From positions 1 to 15,899 of the forward strand of contig JAQSXN010000021.1 in the NCBI GenBank assembly GCA_029256665.1: a DNA stretch of 15,899 bases, written 5' to 3'. Positions within the stretch are counted from its first letter, which is position 1. Each line of letters begins with the position of its first letter. The notes beneath the pieces were generated by a model that was not told the origin of the DNA, ran no database searches, and saw only the letters and a program-made list of their open reading frames with translations. The position numbers were made by a program, and so were the translations under genes. The stretch is from Paenibacillus sp. (GTDB lineage: Bacteria; Bacillota; Bacilli; Paenibacillales; Paenibacillaceae). Shown in pieces: positions 3,933-14,459 of the stretch.

Positions 3933-4964
3933 ATGACGGTGCAACGAACGCCGCTGGAACATTATGCCGAACACATCTTTTTCGATCGCCATCCCGATCT
4001 TTATATCGAGGAAGCGGTAGAAGGCTTGTGGCTTGCCGAGCATGATCATGACTTCGTCGAATTGGTCCTCGTGCTCGAAGGAAGAGGGACGCATTACCTG
4101 AACGGAGAGCCGGTTCAAGCCCGGCGCGGCGATTTATTTGCCATCCCCGTTGGCACCCGCCATATTTTCCGGCCGGACGCGCGCGCTTCCAAAGCATCCA
4201 AAGCATCCAAGATCGAACGGTTGAAGGTCGTGAACGGTCTCATCCGGAAGAATGCCTTATCCAGACTGTCCGCGTTCCTGGAGGATCGGGACGCCGCAGC
4301 GTTCCTCTCTTGGCTGGCTGGAGACGTATCAAGCTCCGACAACTTGCTCGGGAACGGCGATCCATTCGCCGTTCATGCGGCAGAAACGGACCTCTCCCGG
4401 CCAAAACTCGATGCCGCACATGCTTGGCTGCACGTGCGCGACCGATCGGATAAGCTCCGGAATCTGTTCGTACAGCTGCATGCCGATTACAACGGCAGCG
4501 CCGACTCGCTTTCATTATGGAGCGGCGCGCTTGGCCTGCTGGCGGCCATCTACCGGCACGCGGAGTTCCCCGGCGGAGTCGGCGGCGAATCGCCGACCGG
4601 TCCGGCAACCGCGGCGTCCGCGGGCCGCGCCGCGGAGGCGGCTCCCTTGCGCAAGGCGCTCGCCTTCATGCGGGCGCGATACGCGGAGCCGCTGACCGCC
4701 GCCGTCGTCGCGGATGCGGCGGGGATCGGCGAGCGGCAGCTCGCGCGCCTGTTCGCCTCGGCGACGGGGCGTTCGTTCCTCCGCCATCTGGAGGATATCC
4801 GCATCGAAGCATGCTGCGGCTTGCTCCGCGACAGCCGAGTGGCGATCATGGATCTGCCTCCCCTCGTCGGCTACGAGCAATGGAAATCGCTTAACCGCGT
4901 CTTCCGCAGCCGCATGGGCGTCAGCATGCGCGAATACCGCAAGCATGCGGCTCACGAAGCCTAA
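3933..4964 (+). CDS. AraC/XylS-family transcriptional regulator with N-terminal cupin domain
   Basis: The 343-residue protein has the AraC two-domain plan. Residues about 15-80 form a cupin-type sensor domain, with HDHDFVELVLVLEG at 37-50 and GDLFAIPVGTRHIF at 66-79. The C-terminal DNA-binding domain (about 236-343) has a first HTH near 255-276 and a second near 304-326, ending GVSMREYRKHA. The central region is less conserved and includes the low-complexity ASKASKASK at 85-93. GGAGG at 3918-3922 stands 10 nt before ATG 3933. It is divergent from the rhamnosidase gene over 140 bp carrying direct repeats. It therefore probably activates that gene in response to rhamnose or a rhamnosylated oligosaccharide; the ligand is a guess from context. 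No terminator is seen after it; clpP regulation begins 9 nt downstream. Confidence 0.92.
   Translation: MTVQRTPLEHYAEHIFFDRHPDLYIEEAVEGLWLAEHDHDFVELVLVLEGRGTHYLNGEPVQARRGDLFAIPVGTRHIFRPDARASKASKASKIERLKVVNGLIRKNALSRLSAFLEDRDAAAFLSWLAGDVSSSDNLLGNGDPFAVHAAETDLSRPKLDAAHAWLHVRDRSDKLRNLFVQLHADYNGSADSLSLWSGALGLLAAIYRHAEFPGGVGGESPTGPATAASAGRAAEAAPLRKALAFMRARYAEPLTAAVVADAAGIGERQLARLFASATGRSFLRHLEDIRIEACCGLLRDSRVAIMDLPPLVGYEQWKSLNRVFRSRMGVSMREYRKHAAHEA
4188..4211 (+). repeat. 9-bp tandem repeat inside the AraC-type gene
   Basis: The unit TCCAAAGCA occurs twice perfectly, followed by a partial third copy (TCCAAG). It encodes SKA units, giving ASKASKASK (residues 85-93) in the linker after the cupin domain. 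Copy changes would stay in frame. Confidence 0.8.
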
Positions 4965-13384: not shown

Positions 13385-14257
13385 TTAAACGCCTTTGTTC
13401 TTGAATAAAGTGCTGATGGAACCGCCATCCAAGATGATGCGCGTCGCTTCCGCGAGCAACGGGGCGACGGACAGGATTTTGAACCGTTCCGGCGTCGTCT
13501 CCGGCAGCATGATGGAGTCGGTCACGATAACTTCTCTTATGGATGGATGGTCTAGACGCTCAATGGCGGAACCGGAGAACAGAGGATGCGTCGCGCAGAC
13601 GAATACGTCCTCGGCGCCGCGTTCCTTCAAACTTTCGACAACGTTGACGATCGTGCCGCCCGTATCGATCAAATCCTCGATGATGATAGGCGTCTGTCCT
13701 TCGACATCCCCGATCACGTGCGTGATGGAGGACTCGTTGTGCGCCGAACGCTTCTTGATCATGATCGCGAAGGACGTATCCAAGTAGTTGGCGAGCTTCT
13801 CCGCCGTGGACGCGCGGCCCGCATCCGGGGATACGACAACCGGGTTTTTGATGTTCTTGGACTTCAGATAATCGCTGATCAGATCCAGCGCGGTCATATG
13901 GTCCACCGGAATGTTGAAGAAACCTTGAATAGCCGGAGCATGAAGATCGATCGTAATGACGCGGGTCGCTCCAACCGTCGTCAACACATCCGCAAGCATC
14001 TTCGCCGAGATTGGCTCCCGAGGAGCGGCTTTCCGTTCCTGGCGCGCATATCCGTAGTACGGCATGATAATGTTCACCGTTCTGGCGGAAGCGCGCTTCG
14101 CCGCGTCGATCATGACCAATAATTCGACAAAATGCTCGTTGATGGGATGCGAGAACGACTGCACGAGAAAGACGTCGCAGTTCCGAATCGTTTCTTCATA
14201 GTGAACGTAGATCTCACCGCTCTTGAAACGGGACAGTTTGATGGAACCTAGGTTCAA
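13385..14257 (-). CDS. prs: Ribose-phosphate pyrophosphokinase, main frame after a 5' frameshift
   Basis: The 290-residue frame covers all but the first 26 residues of a PRPP synthetase, which makes PRPP from ribose-5-phosphate and ATP for nucleotide, histidine and tryptophan synthesis. Visible motifs are RFKSGEIYV, the catalytic ARQERKA region, DLHAPAIQGFF, SPDAGRAS at 143-150 (usually PDHGG-like) and the PRPP loop EDLIDTGGT at 194-202 (usually DDxxDTAGT). The normal start at ATG 14352 is out of frame because of a 17-bp duplication at 14257-14290. The only start for this frame is TTG 14257, which overlaps the stop of the upstream fragment. Without the first strand and helix, activity is doubtful unless reinitiation suffices. 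It may be a second Prs paralogue; many relatives have another prs elsewhere. A sequencing error must also be considered. Confidence 0.85.
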   Translation of the reverse strand: MNLGSIKLSRFKSGEIYVHYEETIRNCDVFLVQSFSHPINEHFVELLVMIDAAKRASARTVNIIMPYYGYARQERKAAPREPISAKMLADVLTTVGATRVITIDLHAPAIQGFFNIPVDHMTALDLISDYLKSKNIKNPVVVSPDAGRASTAEKLANYLDTSFAIMIKKRSAHNESSITHVIGDVEGQTPIIIEDLIDTGGTIVNVVESLKERGAEDVFVCATHPLFSGSAIERLDHPSIREVIVTDSIMLPETTPERFKILSVAPLLAEATRIILDGGSISTLFKNKGV

Positions 14258-14352
14258 ACCAAGCTCTTCGCTGAACCAAGCTCTTCGCTGATTTTCTGAG
14301 CCAATACCGGATTTGAAGAACCCGAAAAAATACGCACCTTGTCGCTTAACAT
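14254..14352 (-). pseudogene. prs: Frameshifted 5' fragment of prs
   Basis: AGGAGG at 14358-14363 stands 5 nt before ATG 14352. The reading frame gives MLSDKVRIFSGSSNPVLAQK and then ISEELG, the standard Prs N-terminus. After that the duplicated copy makes it read SAKSLV and stop at TGA (14254-14256), 32 residues in all. Removing one 17-bp copy joins it to the downstream frame and yields 316 residues, the usual Prs length. The stop overlaps TTG 14257 as TTGA, which could allow termination-reinitiation. Confidence 0.88.
14257..14290 (-). repeat. Perfect 17-bp tandem duplication inside prs
   Basis: The unit CAGCGAAGAGCTTGGTT (minus strand) occurs twice in direct contact, at 14274-14290 and 14257-14273. 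Seventeen is not a multiple of three, so the second copy breaks the prs frame. Confidence 0.97.
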
Positions 14353-14431
14353 GATACCCTCCTGAGCGTTTCGACCAAATAATTTATTACGAGAACCAGG
14401 CGATCGATAGTCGCCGACCTTTACCTGTCCT

Positions 14432-14459
14432 ATTATACATTGATTTATGAAGATTTCAA
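14432..14459 (-). promoter_or_regulatory. Sigma-A promoter of prs
   Basis: Minus-strand TTGAAA (14454-14459), a 16-nt spacer and a consensus TATAAT (14432-14437). Transcription should start near 14425, about 70 nt before ATG 14352. The leader contains a small stem GGCGA/TCGCC (14399-14415). A weak CAAAGT/ACTTTG hairpin at 14484-14499 lies between hisIE and this promoter, without a T tract. Confidence 0.8.

Follow-up and report, generated by a model that had tools for sequence, protein, structure and literature searches.

A 17-bp tandem duplication interrupts the his-linked prs gene in the draft genome of one Paenibacillus lineage

The protein encoded at the locus described here can be compared with the Prs of Bacillus subtilis (PDB entry 1dkr), which we take to be a class I PRPP synthase. 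In the accessible part of a study on pseudogenes in genome assemblies, many of them are described as spurious, low read coverage being a main cause (PMC11017572). As far as that part goes, these cases have in common with the present locus that one frame-breaking lesion affects a conserved and otherwise undecayed gene of a draft genome; the lesion differs in that it is an exact 17-bp duplication here. For fission yeast, the available part of a review describes small tandem duplications by which genes are inactivated reversibly (PMC13207564), and the microhomology-mediated duplications in ssp1 treated there are, like the one described here, short, exact and frame-breaking and could revert. A literature search on Paenibacillus prs and PRPP synthase, on paralogues and on frameshifting tandem duplications yielded, at the level of the search results, nothing on this gene.

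The window, i.e., the whole stretch of 15,899 nucleotides that was analysed, is contig C538 of a Paenibacillus draft assembly of 4,144,769 bases in 630 contigs, which is 63.91% complete and 0.13% contaminated. Its minus strand carries a prs gene (ribose-phosphate diphosphokinase, 13385..14352) that is broken near the 5′ end. The original prediction had placed a perfect tandem duplication at 14257..14290, and it was verified by direct reading as well as with Tandem Repeats Finder (array 14257-14291, period 17, 100% matches, 2.1 copies). The two copies are identical and adjacent on the minus strand, with copy 1 reading from 14290 to 14274 (14274..14290) and copy 2 from 14273 to 14257 (14257..14273); the second copy is missing from every relative examined. 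T14291 adds one further base of periodicity, so that the periodic stretch comprises 35 bp (2 × 17 + 1) and the microhomology at the duplication junction is 1 bp, while several bases are expected of a microhomology-mediated tandem duplication. By a hand estimate, a perfect adjacent 17-mer is expected by chance about 1e-6 times in a window of such size. A chance repeat was ruled out by the 17 exact bases together with the fact that the tandem unit occurs in none of 80 named loci of relatives.

The duplication puts prs out of frame. The frame that starts with the ATG at 14352 (14254..14352) has 32 codons and ends at the TGA at 14256-14254, instead of running on uninterrupted for about 316 codons. 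This stop shares bases with a TTG of the main frame at 14257-14255 (TTGA, 14254..14257), and from this TTG the main frame remains open for 290 amino acids (13385..14257), without the first 26 Prs residues. The frameshift, the stop, the overlap and the AGGAGG upstream of the ATG (14363-14358) had all been predicted, with coordinates that turned out to be right. The duplication is thus real in the draft assembly, and at 63.91% completeness its presence in the organism is not thereby proven.

The identity of the gene was established by profile matches and by its neighbours. The 290-aa part alone scored above the curated cut-offs for class I PRPP synthases (NCBIfam NF002320, 373.5 bits, cut-off 297; TIGR01251, 348.9, cut-off 113), and both fragments match one protein, covering residues 1-27 and 20-316 of the read-through query. 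Residues 32-316 of 1dkr match the 290-aa part with an E-value of 6.7e-97. Unlike 1dkr, the Prs of the window is broken near the N terminus, and one stretch differs, which is PDAGRASTAEKLA in the window and PDHGGVTRARKLA in 1dkr. At the position of PDHGGVTRARKLA, PDAGRA(S/T)TAEKLA was observed in both Prs types (window 13388-14257; L004 2515-3450), and we assume that this divergent stretch may be close to the active site. The gene order hisF, hisIE, prs, TPR protein, trxB is the same in five relatives, including P. agaridevorans, Paenibacillus sp. LHD-117, P. nanensis and P. soyae, and the two nearest relatives have about 85–87% DNA identity in the stretch containing prs. RNA elements were not found within the window at gathering thresholds.

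The AGGAGG ribosome-binding site (14358..14363, minus strand) lies inside a conserved leader, AACGCTCAGGAGGGTATCATG (14350-14370), which is present exactly in 37 of the 80 named loci and with at most two mismatches in 55 of them; these counts, like those of the restart codon below, were taken from the named loci and not from the alignment of 29 relatives. In that alignment, of which 16 relatives were usable because 13 loci stood in the opposite orientation, the sequence farther upstream of the leader was seen to differ among relatives. The leader is possibly a translational control site. A promoter-like TTGAAA-N16-TATAAT with 11 of 12 matches (14432..14459, minus strand) shows no statistical excess, because shuffles of the region contain 1.0 such site on average. 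Directly behind the duplication stands a perfect 12-bp palindrome (14244..14255), which might stall the polymerase; it occurs in five of the 80 named relatives, none of which is duplicated or frame-broken at this locus. With 1 bp of microhomology the junction does not point to a strong mutational mechanism, although the palindrome adjoins it.

A comparison of the site in relatives, which had been proposed with the original prediction, revealed that the broken state is private to this genome. All 80 named loci, which a genome scan had kept from 311 encoding a relative, have a single uninterrupted frame through the duplication site. The same is true for the his-linked prs of all 50 other genomes of the genus (at least 322 codons, no inner stop), a set that overlaps with the named loci, with one genome per species in the sample. 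A duplication shared by ancestry was thus ruled out, as the tandem unit is found in none of the 80 loci and a broken frame in none of the 50 genomes. The unbroken form in the relatives is an uninterrupted protein of about 316 residues, as expected. In the 120 clusters listed of 637 passing (7,999 scored), Prs homologues are 313–339 amino acids long, and the nearest homologue among them is 98% identical and has 316 amino acids.

To the main part of prs, the window's own branch contributed 17 synonymous and 1 nonsynonymous changes, compared to 20:1 for the sister P. agaridevorans and 19:1 for LHD-117, counted only at codons that are identical in the three others of the four sequences compared. 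These ratios indicate full constraint on the gene until very recently and rule out an old pseudogene; together with the intact leader they imply that normal selection acted on prs up to very recent times or is acting still. A hand calculation, in which the neutral ratio of nonsynonymous to synonymous changes was assumed to be about 3, limited the time without constraint to less than roughly a tenth of the branch.

It had also been proposed to look for another prs in the genome, and an intact one was found behind fabV on contig C54, with 69% identity to the broken copy. It is the sole other Prs in the available part of the genome. A second Prs match at 67–73% identity exists in all 51 genomes of the genus (hand count), and fabV adjoins the second gene in all six relatives whose surroundings were read. 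The second copy of genome G044, with one TAA listed inside, continues to its terminal stop without another. A third Prs-like gene with about 67% identity was observed in four genomes of the genus (G002, G035, G047 and G048); in G048, fabV was not found in the 12-kb stretch surrounding it (L041, G048:C1:893000-905000).

The classical, glmU-linked prs is missing from contig C625, at the place between glmU and a ctc-like gene (L140, 2931-5844). The order there is a spoVG-like frame, glmU, a ctc/rplY-like frame, a pth-like frame and an mfd-like frame, without prs; glmU was named by family search, and the other names as well as the classical gene order are our assumption. By hand count, 93 of 295 Paenibacillaceae genomes, that of the window included, do not have a classical-scoring Prs, defined by a best TIGR01251 E-value weaker than 1e-120, with G234 falling between both classes. 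The his-linked type is found in all 93 (E-value of 7.5e-160 or better, no inner stop), and thus the 92 others all retain it. Only one Prs is present in 17 of the 93, two of which are only 87–89% complete, and it is of the his-linked type in every case (83–89% identity to the window's prs, 69–72% to the C54 copy); three further one-copy genomes have only a classical Prs. Across five relatives the his-linked prs is the slower-evolving of the two, with 97.6–98.6% identity compared to 82.4–89.7% for the fabV-linked copy. Judged from these sequence comparisons, it is not the dispensable prs that is broken. The reading as a recent mutation in a redundant paralogue was therefore only partly borne out: the event is recent and private and a second prs is intact, but the broken copy is not the redundant one. 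From the 92 genomes and the 17 one-copy genomes, a fixed loss of this type is unexpected, and a fixed null allele would be so surprising that the chance of an artefact is raised.

According to the explanation that we favour, and to which we give about an even chance, a sporadic, very recent 17-bp duplication occurred in the sequenced DNA of one Paenibacillus lineage and left the his-linked prs as a null or near-null allele. The other explanation to be taken seriously, which we hold to be a real possibility at somewhat less than even, supposes that the draft assembly or the library went wrong locally and that the organism has an intact prs with one 17-bp copy. Two contig ends with 17 bp in common could have been joined without collapse of the overlap, or a slip during amplification could have entered the consensus. 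Spurious broken genes are known from drafts like this one, with its 630 contigs and 64% completeness, which speaks against a real duplication. Retention of the broken gene's type in the 92 other genomes without a classical Prs, the lack of decay (17:1) and a microhomology of only 1 bp, as an arbitrary join would give, point in the same direction. Short-read errors are usually single-base errors, however, and a repeat graph by itself would not create a 17-bp loop. In addition, the genome's own contigs gave no further example: within 101 of the 630 contigs (939,586 bases, 23%), no long open frame contained another perfect duplication whose period is not divisible by three, and an assembly-wide duplication artefact was not seen. 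The 101 contigs, among them the window and C54, were picked by their numbers and not randomly, and one contig was cut at 20 kb of its 31 kb. The period is divisible by three in 14 of the 16 perfect tandem arrays that they contained; the two exceptions are the prs duplication and a 13-bp array that is crossed by no open frame (L229 12539-12575 on contig C13, 2.8 perfect copies). A 9-bp unit with 2.6 perfect copies was also observed in the window (4188-4210), in frame within a regulator gene that we take to be AraC-like. The control, arrays in the loci of relatives, goes against this reading of the survey: 6 of 9 rows (80 loci) and 3 of 5 rows (12 loci) have a period not divisible by three, with two L043 rows duplicating two overlapping L060 rows because both loci are from one genome. 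No open frame of more than 115 codons runs across eight of these nine rows, and the ninth (L113, 29 bp, 300-371) is crossed by an open frame of 338 codons, which may be a gene. A scan for frame breaks in 61 contigs yielded 21 candidates, at least two of which are ordinary neighbouring genes in the window; prs, the first part of which is short, was not listed. Pfam searches with five of the suspicious pairs of neighbouring frames showed distinct genes in three cases and were uninformative in two, and thus no split gene was found among them.

The original prediction had further considered that the break might have a function, and for neither form of this idea was positive evidence obtained. A reinitiation at the overlapping TTGA, yielding low-level or alternative expression of a shortened functional Prs, is improbable. 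The arrangement itself would allow it, since the TGA overlaps the TTG that opens the 290-aa main frame, and a start-type codon is present at this position in 40 of the 80 named loci (24 TTG, 8 ATG, 8 GTG). Yet the other 40 loci have none, and the stop is found in none of the 80; with TTG in just 24 and any start-type codon in half of the loci, the restart codon is neither conserved nor special, and the position is not exceptional. The N-terminal stretch of Prs has a structural role, and a restarted product would be devoid of this stretch, which the solved full-length Prs chains contain, while the homologues are of full length in all of the 120 clusters listed of 637. A reversible switch, by which gain or loss of one 17-bp unit would toggle Prs in a subpopulation, is slightly less probable still. 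Two perfect adjacent copies could in principle lose one through slippage, but two copies with 1 bp of microhomology do not make a slippery tract, a broken frame at the site was seen in none of the relatives examined and the tandem unit in none of the 80 named loci, and the copy number does not vary among relatives, as the frame is uninterrupted in all 80 loci and all 50 genomes. Prs belongs to central metabolism and is not a typical contingency function. As far as the available part of the review shows, the duplications of fission yeast ssp1 differ from the prs duplication, which has 1 bp of microhomology, gives no sign of reversion or of a subclonal state, and is found in a bacterium (PMC13207564). 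Least to be expected is a genuine, reversible copy-number switch of 17 bp by which some of the cells would lose their principal PRPP synthase and grow slowly on the fabV-linked paralogue. Restart and switching could at most be accidental side effects of the duplication, which is no regulatory device.

The event, a 17-bp duplication private to one draft genome, is of an ordinary kind. If it is a sporadic recent mutation, as we favour, it is present in cells and not just in the assembly; translation from the normal ATG would end after 32 codons, a product made by restart at the TTG would be devoid of the first 26 residues, and we infer that such a truncated Prs is inactive. Should the allele be real and widespread in the population, PRPP would have to come from the intact fabV-linked prs, and this paralogue would probably carry the load of PRPP synthesis. 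The interest of the duplication would grow only if reads show that it is real and fixed, because the fabV-linked enzyme would then suffice alone. This would be the only lineage here that lives without an intact his-linked or classical Prs, and the fabV-linked paralogue alone could supply PRPP. If the duplication is artefactual, it cautions against declaring essential genes lost in fragmentary genomes. Of more lasting importance, a group of Paenibacillaceae appears, from the distribution of the gene types, to be without the classical prs and to rely on the divergent his-linked enzyme, and a core enzyme that seems to have been replaced may merit study above the duplication itself.
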